In this document: piece after piece, positions 19,784 to 49,810 of the stretch
How the letters are laid out: each line of letters begins with the position of its first letter
Position numbering within the stretch: the first letter of the stretch is position 1
Assembly: GCF_900102075.1 (NCBI RefSeq)
Contig: NZ_FNAV01000009.1
Span: 1 to 64,000 of the forward strand
Direction of reading: 5' to 3'
Source of the DNA: Salipiger thiooxidans
GTDB taxonomy: Bacteria; Pseudomonadota; Alphaproteobacteria; Rhodobacterales; Rhodobacteraceae
Length of the DNA stretch: 64,000 nt
Made by a program: the position numbers and the translations under genes
Notes under the pieces: model-generated
The model's input: the letters and a program-made list of their open reading frames with translations, nothing else
Told to the model about the DNA's origin: nothing
Database searches by the model: none

Positions 19784-22147
19784 TCAGAAGTCGGTCGAGA
19801 TGGTGAAGCTGAAGTTCTGCTCCTTGTCGCGCTTCTCTTTCTTCAGCGCCTTCGAGAAATCGAGGCGAAGCGGACCGAGCGCGCTGTCCCACAGGATCGA
19901 GAAACCGACGACATGGCGGAGCGAGAAGTCCTGATAGAGCACGTCGTTGGTGGTCGAGTTGACGGTGCTGTCCTCGAGCCCCCAGACCGAGCCCATGTCG
20001 TAGAACAGGCCGCCCGAGATGCCGTATTCCTCCGGCAGGCCAAGCGGGAATTCCGCCTCGAACCGGGCCACGGCGTAGTAGTCGCCGCCGAGAGAGTCGT
20101 CGACATCGTCGGCCGCGCTGTATTCGCGCGGACCGATGCCACCGTACTCGAAGCCACGCAGCGTGGAGTCGCTGAGCAGGTAGCGGTCGGTCACCCGGCT
20201 GGAGCCGCTGGAGTAGTTCAGCGCGCCGCCCTCGAACGAGGCCCGCAGCGTGATTTCCTCATTCCAGACACGGGTCTGCGCGATGGCGCGGACGTTGGTC
20301 TTGATGAACGTGGTGTCGCCGCCGACGCCGCCGAGATCCTGGCCGAACTCGAGCAGGACGCCCGCGTTGGGGTTCAGGCCGGTGCGGCGGGTGTCGTAGC
20401 TGAAGGTGTAGCCGAGGCTGCTGTCAAAGCGCGCACCGTCTTCCTCTTCCGCGCGGATGACCTGGCCGGCGTCACCGTCTTCGGTGTTGCGGATGTCCGA
20501 GTAGCCCAGCGTGTAACGCAGGCTCAGACGGCCGTTTTCCGAGATCGGGAACGAGAAGCTCGGGCGGAACTGGCCGCGGCGGGTGTCGAACTCGGCGTAT
20601 TCGTTGTCGGTCTCGCGGTAGCTGGCACCAAGGCCGAAGGCGAGATCGCGGCCAAGGAAGTACGGCTCGACGAAGTTGAAGTTGTAGGACGACGACGAGG
20701 ACGCGGTGTTGACGCCCAGCGACAGCGCCTGGCCACGGCCAAGGAAGTTGGTCTCGCCGAACGAGATCGACGCGCCGATGCCGCTGGTGGTCGAGTACGA
20801 CCCGCCGAAGCCGATGGAGCCGGTGGGCTGCTCGGTGACGTTCACGTCGACGATGACCTGCTGCGGCGTGCTGCCTTCGCGAGCGTCGACCTGCGCGTCC
20901 GAGAAGTAGCCGAGCGCGCGGATGCGTTCGGCGGACTGGCGGATGGCGCGCGGGTTGAACGGGTCACCCTCGGCGGTGTCGAACTGGCGCCGGATCACGC
21001 GGTCGAGCGTGGTGGTGTTGCCTTCGATGTCGATGCGCTCGACGAAGATGCGCGGGCCGCGGGTGAGCTGGAAGCTCACGTCGAGCGTCAGGTTGCGCTC
21101 GTTGCGGGTGACGCGGGGCTCGATGCGCACGAACTGCAGCCCCTCCTCGACCGCGAGCCGCTCGAGGCGGGCGATCTGGTTCTCGACCACGGAGGGCGAA
21201 TAGACCTTGCCGGGCTTCACCGTGAGCGCGTCGCGGAACAGCGGCACGTTGACCTCGGCCAGATCGGATTCGACCGAGATGTTGCCGAAGTTGAACTGCT
21301 GACCTTCCTCGATGTTGAAGGTCACGAAGTAGGCGTCACGCTCCTGCGCGAGCTCGGAGTTGACCCCGGTGATGCGGAAGTCGACGTAGCCGCGCGAGGC
21401 GTAGAAATCCTGCAGGAGCTGGCGGTCGAAGGCGATGCGATCCTCGATGTAGGTATCGCTGCGGATGATCGCGCGCAGCAGGCCGGCCTGCTTGGTCTCG
21501 AGCACGCGGCGCAGGCGCCCGTCCGAATAGGCCTGGTTGCCGACGAAACCGATGCGCTCGATCTCGGTCACGCCGCCTTCGAAGATCTCGTAGACGAGAT
21601 CGACGCGGTTCTCGGAGCGACGGATGAGCTTCGGGGTCACGCGGGCCGAGATCCGGCCCTGCTGGGTGTAGGCGTCGGCGATGGACTGGGCGTCCTGCTC
21701 GGCCATAGACGGGCTGTAGACCCGGCGCGGCTGCGAGCGCACGATCGCGGCGAGGTCCTCGTCCTTGATGCGGCGGTTGCCCTCGAAGGCGATGCGGTTG
21801 ACCGTCGGATACTCGACGACGCGGATCACCAGCGTGTTGCCCTGCGGCAGGATCTCGACCGTCTCGAAGAGGCCCGAGGCGACGATGCGCTGGTAGGCAT
21901 CGTTGAGCTCTGCGGCCGACACCGGTGCGCCGCGCGCGATTCCGGCGTAGCTCAGGATGGTGCCGGGCTCGATCCGCTGGTTGCCCTCGATCGACACGTT
22001 GTTGAAAGAGAAGGTCTGCGCCACGGCCTGCTCGGGAAGCGCCGTGAAAGCCATTGAAAACGCGACGGAAATTGCCGCGAGAGATGCCGTGCCCCTGAAA
22101 ATGCGCGCAAGGCGCGGGAGGCGCGCTCCCGTTTGCCCGTTGGTCAT
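19784..22147 (-). CDS. bamA: Outer-membrane protein assembly factor BamA
   Basis: A protein of 787 residues, central to folding and insertion of outer-membrane beta-barrels. A signal peptide with a long n-region (to about residue 43, ending AVAQT) is followed by five POTRA domains (about 45-440), which start with FSFNNVSIEGNQRIE. The C-terminal 16-strand Omp85 barrel follows. The protein ends in Phe (SFTISTDF), the outer-membrane C-terminal signature. Its own promoter lies at 22181-22209, so bamA-skp can be expressed apart from rseP. Confidence 0.96.
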   Translation of the reverse strand: MTNGQTGARLPRLARIFRGTASLAAISVAFSMAFTALPEQAVAQTFSFNNVSIEGNQRIEPGTILSYAGIARGAPVSAAELNDAYQRIVASGLFETVEILPQGNTLVIRVVEYPTVNRIAFEGNRRIKDEDLAAIVRSQPRRVYSPSMAEQDAQSIADAYTQQGRISARVTPKLIRRSENRVDLVYEIFEGGVTEIERIGFVGNQAYSDGRLRRVLETKQAGLLRAIIRSDTYIEDRIAFDRQLLQDFYASRGYVDFRITGVNSELAQERDAYFVTFNIEEGQQFNFGNISVESDLAEVNVPLFRDALTVKPGKVYSPSVVENQIARLERLAVEEGLQFVRIEPRVTRNERNLTLDVSFQLTRGPRIFVERIDIEGNTTTLDRVIRRQFDTAEGDPFNPRAIRQSAERIRALGYFSDAQVDAREGSTPQQVIVDVNVTEQPTGSIGFGGSYSTTSGIGASISFGETNFLGRGQALSLGVNTASSSSSYNFNFVEPYFLGRDLAFGLGASYRETDNEYAEFDTRRGQFRPSFSFPISENGRLSLRYTLGYSDIRNTEDGDAGQVIRAEEEDGARFDSSLGYTFSYDTRRTGLNPNAGVLLEFGQDLGGVGGDTTFIKTNVRAIAQTRVWNEEITLRASFEGGALNYSSGSSRVTDRYLLSDSTLRGFEYGGIGPREYSAADDVDDSLGGDYYAVARFEAEFPLGLPEEYGISGGLFYDMGSVWGLEDSTVNSTTNDVLYQDFSLRHVVGFSILWDSALGPLRLDFSKALKKEKRDKEQNFSFTISTDF

Positions 22148-22180
22148 GCTGCCAATCCACTCCGCCGTATTTTTTTTACG

Positions 22181-22209
22181 TGAGTAAAGGGATTGGGCAG
22201 GCTTGTCAA
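22181..22209 (-). promoter_or_regulatory. Promoter of bamA
   Basis: On the minus strand a perfect TTGACA (22209-22204) and TACTCA (22186-22181) are separated by 17 bp, about 34 bp before the bamA start. The -35 box abuts the terminator-like hairpin at 22208-22224. Confidence 0.6.
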
Positions 22210-22224
22210 AAGCCGAAACCGGCT
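22208..22224 (-). terminator. Short terminator-like hairpin before bamA
   Basis: The stem AGCCG (22211-22215) with CGGCT (22220-22224) has a 4-nt loop and is followed on the minus strand by TTTT. It lies just after the 41-codon ORF stop and may separate that transcript from bamA. The stem is only 5 bp, so termination would be weak. Confidence 0.35.
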
Positions 22225-22228
22225 GTGA

Positions 22229-22354
22229 CTACAGCGATCCGAGGAAGGCGCCGAAATACAACGCACCCACGATCATGCCGACCGAAAGCAGGCGATCCCA
22301 GTTGATCGTGACAAGAAGGCCGAGGCCGCGACAGCCGGATTGAAGGGTGTGCAT
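22229..22354 (-). CDS. Putative 41-residue single-pass membrane microprotein
   Basis: An open frame of 41 codons from ATG (22354) to TAG (22229), between rseP and bamA on the same strand. The first 20 residues are mixed (a Cys at 8, Arg at 9, then TINWDR at 16-21). Residues 22-41 form one uninterrupted hydrophobic helix (LLSVGMIVGA then LYFGAFLGSL) ending at the stop. The NWDR-then-helix layout looks like a designed N-in or N-out membrane anchor rather than random sequence. Codon choice is GC-rich at third positions like its neighbours. No clear ribosome site is visible. A LexA-box match lies 54 bp upstream (22408-22422). Function unknown; existence needs support from conservation. Confidence 0.5.
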   Translation of the reverse strand: MHTLQSGCRGLGLLVTINWDRLLSVGMIVGALYFGAFLGSL

Positions 22355-22407
22355 TTGTCGGACGCCGGTTCTTTGCGCATTGGGCCGCGACGCGCGCAGC
22401 GGGAATG

Positions 22408-22422
22408 GTTCGGGCGTCGTTC
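22408..22422. promoter_or_regulatory. LexA-box match (GTTC-N7-GTTC) upstream of the microprotein
   Basis: GTTC (22408-22411), seven bases, GTTC (22419-22422) matches the alphaproteobacterial SOS operator exactly. It lies downstream of rseP and upstream of the 41-codon ORF. A weak promoter (TTGGGA at 22433-22428, AACCAT at 22410-22405 on the minus strand) would place the box inside the promoter. About two such matches are expected by chance in 64 kb, so this one alone is not decisive. Confidence 0.4.
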
Positions 22423-22502
22423 TACCATCCCAATATGGCCCAATTGGGGCGATCCGGCGCGCCAGTGCGTGGTGGCGCGCCGAAGGTTTCCTGCGCGTCC
22501 CG

Positions 22503-23846
22503 TCAGGGGCAAAAGAGATCGTTGGTCAGCGCGAAGGTCATCAGCGACAGGATCAGGATCAGCCCGATCGACATCAGCACGTTGAGCGCGCGGTCCGACG
22601 GAGGCTTGCCGCTGACCGCTTCCCAGGCGTGGAACACCAGGTGCCCGCCGTCGAGCACCGGCACCGGGAACAGGTTCAGAAGGCCCACAGCGGTCGAGAG
22701 CACGGCGATGAAGGTGATGAAGCTCTGCCCGCCTTGGCTTGCCATCGCGCCCGAGGTCTGCGCGATGCCGATGGGGCCCGACAGGTTGCACGACGAGATG
22801 TTGCCGATCACCATGTTCCAGAGCCCGGAGAGCGAGCCGGTGATGATGCTCCATGTGCGCTCGACGCCGCCGGTGAAGGCCTCGACGGGGCCCACCATGC
22901 TGGTCGCGGGCTCGAAGGCCAGCCCGCCGACGATGCCGATGCGGTAGACCGTGTGGTAGCCGCCCTCGGGCAGCGGCTCGTCCGTGCGCTTGGGCGTGAG
23001 CTCGAGCTCGAGCGTCTCGCCGTTGCGCCAGACCGTCAGGTCGAGCGGCGCGCCCCCGGAGCCCTCGACCTTTTCCTTGAGCTGATCGAAGGCAAAGGCC
23101 TGCTCGCCGTTGATCGACATGACGATGTCGCCGGGCTCGATCCCGGCCTCGTTGGCAGCGGACCGCGGCACGATCTGGGTGGCGATGGGCGGATAGACAT
23201 AGGGGCCGTCTACTTCGATCTCCTGCCCGTCACGGTTCACGATGTAGGGCAGGATAGCCTCGTGCGGCAGCGTGTCCATGAAGGTGCCGAAAGCCTCGGA
23301 ATCGCCGAAGTCGGGCAGCGGCGCGCCGCCGATCTCGAGGATCTCGTCGCCCTCGCGCAGGTCCTGCGCCACCGGCAGCGCGCGCAGCTCGCCCACGGTG
23401 AAGGGCTCGGCCACCCGGCCCTGCACCATGAAGATGCCGGTGAAGACGACGATGGTGAGCACGAAGTTAAACACCGGCCCGGCGGCGACCGTGGCGGCCC
23501 GCGCCCAGAGCGGCGCGCCGTTCATGGTGCGGCGTTTCTCCTCGTCCGAGAGCTGCGCCATCGCGGCCTCGTCGGCGCCGCCGCTGGCGTTGGCATCGCC
23601 CTTGAACTTGACGTAGCCGCCGAAGGGCAGCGCCGCAATCTGCCACTTGGTGCCGCGCTTGTCGTCGCGCGACCAGATCACCGGCCCGAAGCCCAGCGAG
23701 AACACGTCCGCGTCGATTCCCGACCAGCGGCCGACGATGTAGTGACCATATTCATGGATGGCCACGACCACCGAAAGCGCGACGACGAAGGCGATCAGAG
23801 TGTAGATCAGGCCTCCGAATTCGGGGATCAATTGCGCAATGTCCAA
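22503..23846 (-). CDS. rseP: RIP zinc metalloprotease RseP
   Basis: A site-2-type intramembrane protease of 447 residues. It cleaves membrane-bound regulators, classically anti-sigma factors in envelope stress. The zinc motif HEYGH is at 31-35 in the first membrane helix. Two PDZ-like regions lie around residues 110-300. The second active-site motif, NLFPVPVLDGGHL, is near the C-terminus and followed by membrane helices. The start appears to be TTG (23846-23844), because no ATG or GTG gives the conserved N-terminal helix. It lies 12 bp after dxr. Function in this organism is inferred from the family. Confidence 0.93.
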   Translation of the reverse strand: MDIAQLIPEFGGLIYTLIAFVVALSVVVAIHEYGHYIVGRWSGIDADVFSLGFGPVIWSRDDKRGTKWQIAALPFGGYVKFKGDANASGGADEAAMAQLSDEEKRRTMNGAPLWARAATVAAGPVFNFVLTIVVFTGIFMVQGRVAEPFTVGELRALPVAQDLREGDEILEIGGAPLPDFGDSEAFGTFMDTLPHEAILPYIVNRDGQEIEVDGPYVYPPIATQIVPRSAANEAGIEPGDIVMSINGEQAFAFDQLKEKVEGSGGAPLDLTVWRNGETLELELTPKRTDEPLPEGGYHTVYRIGIVGGLAFEPATSMVGPVEAFTGGVERTWSIITGSLSGLWNMVIGNISSCNLSGPIGIAQTSGAMASQGGQSFITFIAVLSTAVGLLNLFPVPVLDGGHLVFHAWEAVSGKPPSDRALNVLMSIGLILILSLMTFALTNDLFCP

Positions 23847-41115: not shown

Positions 41116-42201
41116 TCAGAACAGGCTGAGCTGGTCCCCCGCCCGCGCCGGCGGCTGGAACAGGTCCGTGCGCAGCGGCGGCAGTTTGCGGTCGAGCCCA
41201 AGCCGCCGCGCTGCCTTGCGGAAGCGTTGCGCGATGATCTCGGCGTAGTGGCCCTCGCCCCGCATCCGGTGGTGCCACTTGGCGCTGTATTCCTGCCCGC
41301 CATGCATCTCGCGCAGCCGCGCCATGACGCGGGCGGCGCGGTCGGGGTAGTGCTCGGCCAGCCAGGATTGCCACAGCGGCGAGACCTCGAGCGGCAGTCG
41401 CAGCATGATCCAGCTTGCCGCAATCGCCCCGGCCTCGGCCCCCGCCTCGAGGATGCGCTCCATCTCGTGATCGGTGAGCGCGGGCACCACGGGCGAAACC
41501 ATGATCCGCGCCTCGATCCCGGCCTCGTGCAGCTTCCGGATGGTTGCGAGGCGTCGCTTAGGCTGCGGCACGCGGGGTTCCATCCGGCGGGCGAGATCGG
41601 CGTCAAGCGTGGTGACCGAGATCCCCACCCGCGCCAGCCCCTGCGACGCCATCTCCGACAGGATGTCGATGTCGCGCTCGATCAGCGTGCCCTTGGTGAC
41701 GATGGCGACCGGGTGCTTGAAATCGCGCAGCACCTCGAGGCAGGCGCGCATGATGCCCCGGTCGCGCTCGATGGGCTGGTAGGGATCGGTGTTGGTGCCG
41801 ATGGCGATGGTCTGCGGCTGGTAGCGCCGCGCCCTGAGCTCGCGCGACAGCACCTCGGGCGCGTCGGGGCGGGCAATGAGGCGGGTCTCGAAGTCGAGCC
41901 CCGGCGACAGGCCGAGATACGCATGCGACGGCCGCGCGAAGCAGTAGATGCAACCGTGCTCGCAGCCGCGATAGGGGTTGATCGAGCGGTCGAAGGGAAT
42001 ATCCGGGGAGGCATTGTAGGCGACGAGGCTGCGCGGACGCTCCTCGCTGACCTCGGTGCGCAGCGGCGGCAGCTCCTCGTCGCGGTCCCAGCCGTCGTCC
42101 GTATCCTCGTAGGCCAGACGCTCGAACCGCCCCGTCTCACGGCTGGCGGCGCCCCGTCCGGGACGGCGGTCTGGGGAGAGATATCGGGGCGACTGGGTCA
42201 T
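41116..42201 (-). CDS. PA0069-family radical SAM protein (SplB-like)
   Basis: A protein of 361 residues. The radical SAM cluster motif CxxxCxxC is at Cys80, Cys84 and Cys87 (PYRGCEHGCIYCFARP). The family resembles spore photoproduct lyase and the PA0069 group, which have no proven substrate; repair of a thymine lesion is one idea. The N-terminal 60 residues are Arg/Asp rich. The gene has a LexA box inside its promoter, and the predicted transcription start coincides with the A of the ATG, so the mRNA may be leaderless. SOS control points to a role in DNA damage, which is an inference. Confidence 0.9.
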   Translation of the reverse strand: MTQSPRYLSPDRRPGRGAASRETGRFERLAYEDTDDGWDRDEELPPLRTEVSEERPRSLVAYNASPDIPFDRSINPYRGCEHGCIYCFARPSHAYLGLSPGLDFETRLIARPDAPEVLSRELRARRYQPQTIAIGTNTDPYQPIERDRGIMRACLEVLRDFKHPVAIVTKGTLIERDIDILSEMASQGLARVGISVTTLDADLARRMEPRVPQPKRRLATIRKLHEAGIEARIMVSPVVPALTDHEMERILEAGAEAGAIAASWIMLRLPLEVSPLWQSWLAEHYPDRAARVMARLREMHGGQEYSAKWHHRMRGEGHYAEIIAQRFRKAARRLGLDRKLPPLRTDLFQPPARAGDQLSLF

Positions 42202-42207
42202 CGCCTG

Positions 42208-42236
42208 AGGTTAGAACATATGTGGAACACTGGCAA
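42208..42236 (-). promoter_or_regulatory. SOS promoter of the radical SAM gene with embedded LexA box
   Basis: On the minus strand TTGCCA (42236-42231) and TAACCT (42213-42208) are 17 bp apart. The spacer contains GTTC-CACATAT-GTTC (42228-42214), an exact alphaproteobacterial LexA box. The -10 ends 6 bases before the ATG at 42201. LexA bound there would block polymerase. Confidence 0.75.
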
Positions 42237-49054: not shown

Positions 49055-49083
49055 TTGACACAAATAGTGAACATGCGTAGAAC
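49055..49083 (+). promoter_or_regulatory. lexA promoter with LexA box
   Basis: A perfect TTGACA (49055-49060) and TAGAAC (49078-49083) are separated by 17 bp. The box GAAC-ATGCGTA-GAAC (49069-49083) overlaps the -10, so LexA should repress its own gene. Confidence 0.85.
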
Positions 49084-49114: not shown

Positions 49115-49810
49115 ATGCTGACCAAGAAACAGCTCGACCTTCTGGATTTCATCAACAAGCGGATGCAGCGGGACGGCGTGCCGCCCAGCTTTGACGAGAT
49201 GAAGGAGGCCCTTGATCTGCGGTCCAAATCCGGGATCCACCGGCTGATCACCGCGCTCGAGGAACGTGGCTTCATCCGCCGTCTCGCGCATCGCGCCCGC
49301 GCCATCGAGATTGTCAAGCTCCCCGAAAGCCTCGGCGGACGTCCCGCGGGCTTCGCGCCCAAGGTGATCGACGGCGACATCCCCGACAGCCGCCCCGCCG
49401 CCGCCCGTCCGGTCGCGACCATCGAGGCGATGGAGCTGCAGGTGCTGGGCCGCATCGCCGCCGGTGAGCCGATCCAGTCGATCGCCGACGACCCTCCGGG
49501 CATCGCCGTGCCGACGGGTATGCTGTCCGCGAACGCCCGGCACTATGCCCTTGAAGTGCGTGGTGATTCCATGATCGAGGCGGGGATCAACGATGGGGAC
49601 GTCGTGATCATCCGCGAGACCTCGAGCGCCGAGAACGGCGACATCGTCGTGGCCCAGATCGAGGGCTACGAGGCCACGCTCAAGCGCTTCCGGCGCAAGG
49701 GCGACGCCATCGTTCTCGAAGCGGCCAACCCGGCCTACGAGCCGCGCGTGCTGCCCGTTGGCTCGGTCAAGGTTCAGGGCCGTCTCGTCGGCCTGATCCG
49801 GACCTACTGA
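49115..49810 (+). CDS. lexA: LexA repressor
   Basis: The SOS master repressor, 231 residues. The winged helix at 1-70 includes [10 protein letters not shown] and [18 protein letters not shown]. The self-cleavage site is Ala116-Gly117 (RIAAGEP); the catalytic dyad is Ser152 (RGDSM) and Lys190 (EATLKRF). Damage-activated RecA filaments trigger cleavage. The start at 49115 follows a GGGGAA site. The linker between the domains (about 75-105) is longer than in E. coli, as usual in alphaproteobacteria. The 3' end overlaps the convergent comEC gene by 7 bp. Confidence 0.97.

Follow-up and report, generated by a model that had tools for sequence, protein, structure and literature searches.

Between rseP and bamA of Salipiger thiooxidans lies a frame of 41 codons, and the question it raises is threefold: is it a gene, which signal governs its expression, and what could so short a product do beside two genes of the envelope? 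A first-pass annotation of the 64,000-nucleotide stretch that we analysed (hereafter the window) had proposed a small membrane protein, perhaps a damage-induced regulator of division or of the envelope under the control of LexA. The features discussed are collected in Table 1; the names rseP and bamA, which we take in part from what is known of these families, are also those of that annotation.

Table 1. Features of the microprotein locus and of the lexA locus, in positions of the window
Feature	Position	Strand	Basis
41-aa membrane microprotein gene, MHTLQSGCRGLGLLVTINWDRLLSVGMIVGALYFGAFLGSL	22229..22354	-	ATG 22354-22352, TAG 22231-22229, 41 codons; relatives and pN/pS
Conserved promoter box: GCC-N8-GCC, directly repeated every 11 bp, with a -10-like TA at its end	22423..22451	-	expectation-maximisation motif and matrix scan
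Putative -10, TAGAAC	22419..22424	-	position inferred from the conserved TA (22423)
GTTC-N7-GTTC match, GTTCGGGCGTCGTTC, overlapping the putative -10/start region, not conserved	22408-22422	+	exact pattern match
rseP (site-2 protease family), 5' neighbour	22503-23846	-	ORF; orthologues adjoin the microprotein in other loci
bamA (outer-membrane protein assembly), 3' neighbour	19784-22147	-	ORF; orthologues adjoin the microprotein in other loci
TTGACA, putative -35 of a separate bamA promoter	22204..22209	-	conserved across loci
TACTCA, putative -10 of the bamA promoter, 17-bp spacer	22181..22186	-	sequence and locus comparison
Short stem-loop, AGCCGGTTTCGGCT, then TTTTG, weak terminator candidate	22211..22224	-	z -1.63 for a 56-nt stretch
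lexA	49115-49804	+	TIGR00498 match, 175.9 bits (cut-off 110.95)
lexA operator, GTTCTACGCATGTTC, 31 bp 5' of the lexA match	49069-49083	-	inner bases the same in 9/9 genus lexA genes

The frame is located exactly where the annotation had placed it, and from the comparison of its relatives it is a real gene. Among 41 genomes searched, full-length matches free of stops were found in 19/19 other genomes of the genus (59–85% identity) and the microprotein was also found in 3 of 5 other Rhodobacteraceae genera, so that the gene survives the check on conservation that had been proposed for it. The coding test, carried out on 20 genus sequences, gives a pooled pS of 0.52 and a pN of 0.19, i.e. a pN/pS of 0.36: substitutions are mostly synonymous, and the variable sites at codon positions 1, 2 and 3 are 25, 15 and 38 of 41. 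Across the 79 distinct microproteins the ATG start is invariant. The annotation had remarked that no clear ribosome site precedes the frame, and indeed the window sequence holds no ribosome-binding core before the ATG. Such a core is present at −18 to −5 in 52 of the 61 loci outside the genus (9.2 in shuffles), against 2 of the 21 loci assigned to the genus, one of which is a metagenome assembly (L062). The missing site is therefore a trait of the genus and does not betray a false gene. Scanned for Rfam families and for tRNAs, the window gave no matches.

Beyond the genus, a profile of the microprotein detects 271 of 394 genomes of the family, sampled at about one per genus, and leaves 123 without a match; among the matches listed there is one per genome. 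At the level of the order 225 of 292 genomes match, all of the same family among the matches listed (47 are not). At the level of the class the figure falls to 9 of 385, namely five members of the family and four others; we rejected the latter as relatives, their E-values of 0.001–0.009 being about those expected by chance for a sample of this size. Likewise, in 16 genomes outside the family the best matches, found in 4 of the 16, have E-values of 0.346 or higher, which is chance level. A second genome collection, where some Salipiger species are filed as Alloyangia, gives 29 loci, with further copies in Ruegeria, Pelagimonas, Thalassococcus, Tropicibacter and others; a strain of Ruegeria pomeroyi (L067) is among the carriers. 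Clear matches were thus found, in the searches made, only within Rhodobacteraceae in the GTDB sense, a family in which the microprotein is apparently inherited vertically. Our literature search, confined to listings of open-licence papers, found no published description of this microprotein family.

The neighbourhood is as stable as the frame. From 103 loci, 82 were kept after removal of duplicates: bamA lies 3' of the microprotein in 82/82, at a distance of 27–272 nt, and rseP lies 5' in 80/82, the other two having no rseP match within the flank examined. Conservation, synteny and purifying selection together bear out the initial guess of a small membrane protein set among envelope genes. The single match in a plasmid collection, in Pseudorhodobacter turbinis (L269, NZ_CP039965.1, a 1.58-Mb replicon), again shows the order rseP–microprotein–bamA; although its record calls it a plasmid, it may be a chromid, or a chromosome under the wrong label. 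A typical Rhodobacteraceae locus of the same order is also found under the actinobacterial name Enemella evansiae TN21-6 (L076), and for that reason the title or the assembly is probably mislabelled.

Is the microprotein gene transcribed apart from bamA? A TTGACA is found within 210 nt 3' of the microprotein stop in 81/82 loci, and is followed by N15–18 and TA in 80/82, counts taken without a shuffle control. A simple promoter scan of positions 22100–22560 did not report this putative bamA promoter, because its −10 is off consensus. The stem-loop listed in Table 1 was not reported by a simple terminator scan of the same interval, and strict terminator-like hairpins occur between the microprotein and bamA in 12/82 loci. 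The microprotein gene is best read as a short transcription unit of its own, with a possible read-through into bamA.

The idea of a control by LexA came from the GTTC-N7-GTTC match, which is indeed present, 53 bases from the ATG. The window has three exact matches to this pattern where 1.21 would be expected, a number attained in 11 of 100 shuffles. At 150 bp or less upstream, an exact box is found at 1 of 82 loci, the one of the window's own genome; at 300 bp or less, at 1 of 61 distinct loci. Boxes with one mismatch within 150 bp are seen at 13 loci for 7.5 in mononucleotide shuffles, an excess that we do not read as a signal. The box 5' of the microprotein is not more than chance. Its sequence can also be compared with genuine operators, since one of the two other matches of the window is the operator before lexA itself. 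In the 9/9 lexA genes of the genus that were fetched, the window's own included, the operator has the form GAACATGnnTAGAAC, whereas the candidate box, written on the coding strand as GAACGACGCCCGAAC, agrees with it at 0 of the 5 conserved inner bases and shares only the outer GAAC words. In three genomes of other families the lexA boxes have other inner bases and the same TAGAAC end. Control of the microprotein by LexA is not supported: the box fails the check on conservation that the frame survives, its inner bases do not fit, and on these two grounds we reject the idea. The functional guess of the first-pass annotation is therefore split: an envelope regulator is still a fair proposal, whereas for a damage-induced division inhibitor nothing is left beyond a non-conserved box and the size class.

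Elsewhere in the window, at 42214-42228, the sequence GTTCCACATATGTTC lies 12 bp 5' of a 361-aa radical SAM gene (41116-42201, minus strand; PF04055). It agrees with the genus lexA operator at 3 of 5 inner positions, against 0 of 5 for the box discussed above, and may be a true LexA target.

What, then, precedes the microprotein gene in all loci? The promoter had been called poor, and a simple sigma-70 scan of positions 22100–22560 gave no match. Expectation-maximisation on the 82 upstream regions yields cGCCcaAATtCTGCCAcATTtgnccGcTA, 23.7 bits over 32 columns, in which GCC is directly repeated at a distance of 11 bp and a TA stands 7 bases after ATT. No locus of the 82 scores below 14.5 bits, the shuffled regions having their 95% point at 0.8 and their maximum at 10.9. 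As a check on circularity the matrix was re-estimated with the genus left out (61 loci); since the full matrix served as the start, the separation is imperfect. In this form it recovers the same site in 21/21 genus loci with at least 10.0 bits, and when both strands of the 64 kb are scanned the microprotein site comes first, at 21.3 bits vs 9.0 for the next. A Pseudorhodobacter locus outside all training obtains 23.7 bits with the same re-estimated matrix. By sequence, the GCC-N8-GCC box is the conserved promoter element of the microprotein gene. The GTTC-N7-GTTC match begins at the end of this element, in the putative −10/start region.

Box and microprotein also come and go together. We fetched the bamA loci of 30 genomes chosen among those listed as negative with the profile, leaving out the less complete genomes and some repeated genera. 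Box and membrane-helix ORF are concordant in 30/30: five have both and 25 have neither. The five positives carry a box of 11.9–22.6 bits, each with an ATG-started ORF of 36–57 residues containing a membrane helix; their gaps are also longer (420–900 nt) and so offer more room for both features, although two negatives are long as well (354 and 454 nt). In the 25 negatives the box score never exceeds 7.1 bits and an ORF of this kind is missing; one of them has a hydrophilic ORF of 29 residues. These 25 have retained bamA, and 24 of them rseP; over the 30, rseP is absent from the fetched stretch in two (L243, L252). On a tree of BamA from 112 loci, the presence or absence of the microprotein needs 11 changes, gain and loss being indistinguishable on this quick tree with many weak forks and no inferred root. 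Strongly diverged microprotein-like ORFs, outside the reach of the profile, occupy the same place in L232, L237, L242, L243 and L249, with the box, the short head and the membrane helix all kept. A decayed-looking copy is seen in L123, of genus g310, whose relatives L235, L236, L240, L246 and L247 have neither the ORF nor the box.

Which protein might read this box? Response regulators of the OmpR/PhoB type typically have as their site a direct repeat of 11 bp placed in the −35 region. PMC9275681 makes a similar statement. CenR, an OmpR-family candidate, was rejected by comparison of motifs, TGA-N8-TGA for CenR vs the GCC-N8-GCC found here. GCC-N8-GCC is the consensus of Sinorhizobium meliloti ChvI as quoted in PMC9731502 (original: Ratib 2018), and a box of this consensus is present in the microprotein promoter region; the motif given for ChvI of Caulobacter, TTGC-N3-GCAA, is unlike it. 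BvrR, the counterpart of ChvI in Brucella, was reported to bind its own operon (PMC9491525). A response regulator near an HPr-kinase-like gene was found in 32 of the 35 loci fetched, from 39 genomes having that gene. Its neighbourhood and an N-terminal motif make this regulator a candidate ChvI. The promoters of these chvI candidates have a median score of −1.6 bits for the box in the forward direction, with 2 of 32 above 9.0 bits (the 99% point of random 300-mers), vs a median of 24.8 for the microprotein. On the opposite strand 5 of 32 exceed 9.0 bits. Autoregulation was considered as a support for ChvI and had to be given up, the box being missing from the chvI candidate promoters. A ChvI-type response regulator may control the microprotein, an assignment partly contradicted by the promoters of the chvI candidates themselves. 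In three genomes (L200, L183 and L193) a high-scoring box lies on the strand opposite the chvI candidate and faces away from it (25.3, 16.3 and 13.5 bits).

The box is not restricted to the microprotein. Completed with CTAR, the pattern matches 18 times in 384 genomes of the family and its reversed control 0 times, 6 of the 18 matches being at the microprotein gene; a slightly different pattern has 14 vs 2 in 120 genomes, and with one mismatch allowed the result is less clear-cut, 11 vs 3 in four genomes. Behind these boxes we find TadG/TadE-like genes, mreB, dksA, a gene for a KpsT-like ABC ATPase, a cupredoxin-like gene (two genomes) and a family of small membrane proteins (four genera). Pfam backs one Tad protein, DksA and MreB, while the other names are our own reading. 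The small membrane proteins (L133, L137, L216 and L221; 116–127 aa), which share the GCC-N8-GCC promoter box, are related to each other (BLASTP E 3e-12 to 2e-20), and the three scanned against Pfam have no match there; from sequence and promoter they are likely fellow members of the regulon. Several further matches (e.g. L138, L224, L227) have no obvious envelope gene behind them. The genome of the window has four exact matches: the microprotein, a small protein that we read as Flp-like and that has no Pfam match, and two without a convincing gene. The KpsT-like gene, again by our own reading, stands behind a one-mismatch box in two Salipiger genomes (L262, L265), the window's own included.

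Among 60 genomes, a Tad pilus domain is found in 35/35 of those with the microprotein or a diverged copy vs 17/25 of those without. Placed on the tree, this co-occurrence provides only four independent contrasts on well-supported branches and is not significant (p 0.25–0.5 in a sign test). The link between the Tad pilus and the microprotein is a lead only.

For the protein itself, AlphaFold2 predicts two helices, 2–17 and 19–40, with a mean pLDDT of 84.4 but a pTM of only 0.42. Among the 79 distinct members N18 and L32 never vary, 78 keep G35 and 78 keep G39, and a small residue occupies positions 31, 35 and 39 in 79, 79 and 78 of them. Conservation is one-sided on helix 19–40 (p 0.0098); on helix 2–17 it is not (p 0.44), and the amphipathicity of this first helix is not significant (p 0.062). 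Charges are concentrated at one end: over the 79 members, residues 1–22 hold 163 K/R vs 2 in the rest, and 122 D/E vs 4. By the positive-inside rule the excess of K/R in residues 1–22 would place the N terminus in the cytoplasm. The most likely product is an N-in, single-span regulator or subunit of the inner membrane with an AxxxGxxxG packing face. Foldseek found no match in the PDB for the fold, and the search of solved structures by sequence returned a single chance match, surfactant protein C (E 0.82), that we discarded. None of three proteins passed a Pfam or NCBIfam cut-off, nor did any of 56 members pass one of Pfam (best E 0.01).

How do other explanations fare beside an inner-membrane microprotein under an OmpR/PhoB-type activator? 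A chance ORF or a non-coding RNA, for which one may quote the shortness of the frame and the lack of a ribosome-binding core in the window sequence, has practically no credit in front of the codon-position bias, the invariant ATG and a frame open across 79 distinct proteins. Hardly better placed is a LexA-repressed division inhibitor induced by DNA damage, after the model of SidA of Caulobacter, as first imagined for this locus. Certainly the exact GTTC-N7-GTTC overlaps the putative −10/start region, and an operator so placed could repress; SidA, a 29-aa inner-membrane protein (PMC4211646), has a comparable size and a single span; and one-mismatch boxes are somewhat more frequent than in shuffles. 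However, the exact box exists in one locus of 82 and has none of the inner bases common to the nine genus operators, one of its half-sites, GAAC, belongs to the TAGAAC that ends the conserved element, and this element is a different and strongly conserved promoter signal. It is also very improbable that the microprotein is a small membrane toxin or a holin-like peptide. The idea comes from Phage_holin_2_2 (PF10746), the most frequent weak Pfam match: with an E of at most 1, it is hit by 15 of 56 members (0.015 for the best). The match stays below the gathering cut-off—15 vs 25.4 bits in one member—and a query resembling the family found nothing in a phage collection; moreover the sole match among plasmids is the rseP–bamA copy of the 1.58-Mb replicon, and the genomes listed have a single copy each.

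Two explanations keep the gene closer to its neighbours. For a leader peptide, or an ORF regulating bamA in cis, one may quote that the frame ends 27–272 nt from that gene in the 82 loci, and that the scarcity of strict terminators (12/82) leaves read-through possible. Yet what is conserved is the amino-acid sequence, down to one face of the membrane helix, and bamA has after the microprotein stop a promoter-like element of its own in 80/82 loci; we consider this proposal improbable. A better claim, which we hold for possible while doubting it, is that the microprotein is not an induced regulator and serves constitutively as accessory subunit in a machine of the inner membrane, be it RseP, Sec/YidC or some other complex of the envelope. 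It would account for the fixed place beside rseP and bamA, for the invariant N18 and L32, and for a helix face with small residues of the kind that packs tightly. On the other hand the gene has its own promoter element, of a type found also before pilus and other surface genes, and in 25 of the 30 profile-negative loci microprotein and box are gone while bamA stays, as does rseP in 24 of these 25.

We favour, with a probability of roughly 0.55, an apparently vertically inherited inner-membrane microprotein that forms its own transcription unit, is activated by an OmpR/PhoB-type regulator, spans the membrane with N terminus in and C terminus out, and tunes the envelope through its packing face, LexA being not involved. 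Of this, the sequence comparison shows the gene with its synteny and selection, the promoter element, the joint occurrence of box and ORF, the separate promoter-like element of bamA and the bias of charges; the activation, the orientation in the membrane and the packing are proposals. The sequence of events might be as follows. A response regulator of this type, for which ChvI, the regulator of envelope stress, would be the first candidate, would bind the GCC repeat in the −35 region and activate transcription. The microprotein would then insert into the inner membrane, helix 2–17 lying near the cytoplasmic face, with a break at the invariant N18 and the membrane helix 19–40 beyond it. The face A31-x3-G35-x3-G39 could pack against itself or against a partner protein of the inner membrane, and this packing would tune the assembly of the envelope or of the surface. 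A more ambitious version, that we advance tentatively and consider rather doubtful, assigns the microprotein to a GCC-N8-GCC regulon as its dedicated effector at the envelope, supposes that this regulon also reaches MreB, Tad pili and capsule export, and lets the microprotein modulate RseP or the outer-membrane assembly route during the remodelling of the surface.

The interest of this locus goes beyond one genome: a large group of environmental bacteria has a conserved small gene where two key genes of the envelope meet, and the box conserved in the promoter of this gene points, from the sequence alone, to a regulon. It asks who reads GCC-N8-GCC in Rhodobacteraceae, and which role a peptide of 41 residues plays in the assembly of the envelope. 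The case also illustrates clearly how a LexA box may look plausible and yet fail on comparison, with a better conserved element beside it.

Among known systems, MgrB, AcrZ and CydX are short bitopic peptides that bind a larger membrane protein. The microprotein resembles them by description, in this short bitopic form, and its clear matches are found within one family only. With the division inhibitors SidA and DidA of Caulobacter it has in common the size class, the single span and an alphaproteobacterial host, again a likeness by description; SidA is controlled by LexA and acts on FtsW (PMC4211646), whereas the LexA box of the microprotein is not conserved. The regulons of ChvI (ExoS/ChvI, BvrR) are nearer by their signal, as the box equals the consensus quoted for S. 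meliloti and is carried by some pilus and surface genes, although here the chvI candidate promoter is devoid of it and the motif reported in Caulobacter differs. Finally, while the CenR motif is given as TGA-N8-TGA and ours reads GCC-N8-GCC, the CenKR regulon of Rhodobacter sphaeroides, as described in PMC9275681, offers in a related bacterium a comparable arrangement: a regulator of the OmpR family and a direct repeat at envelope genes.
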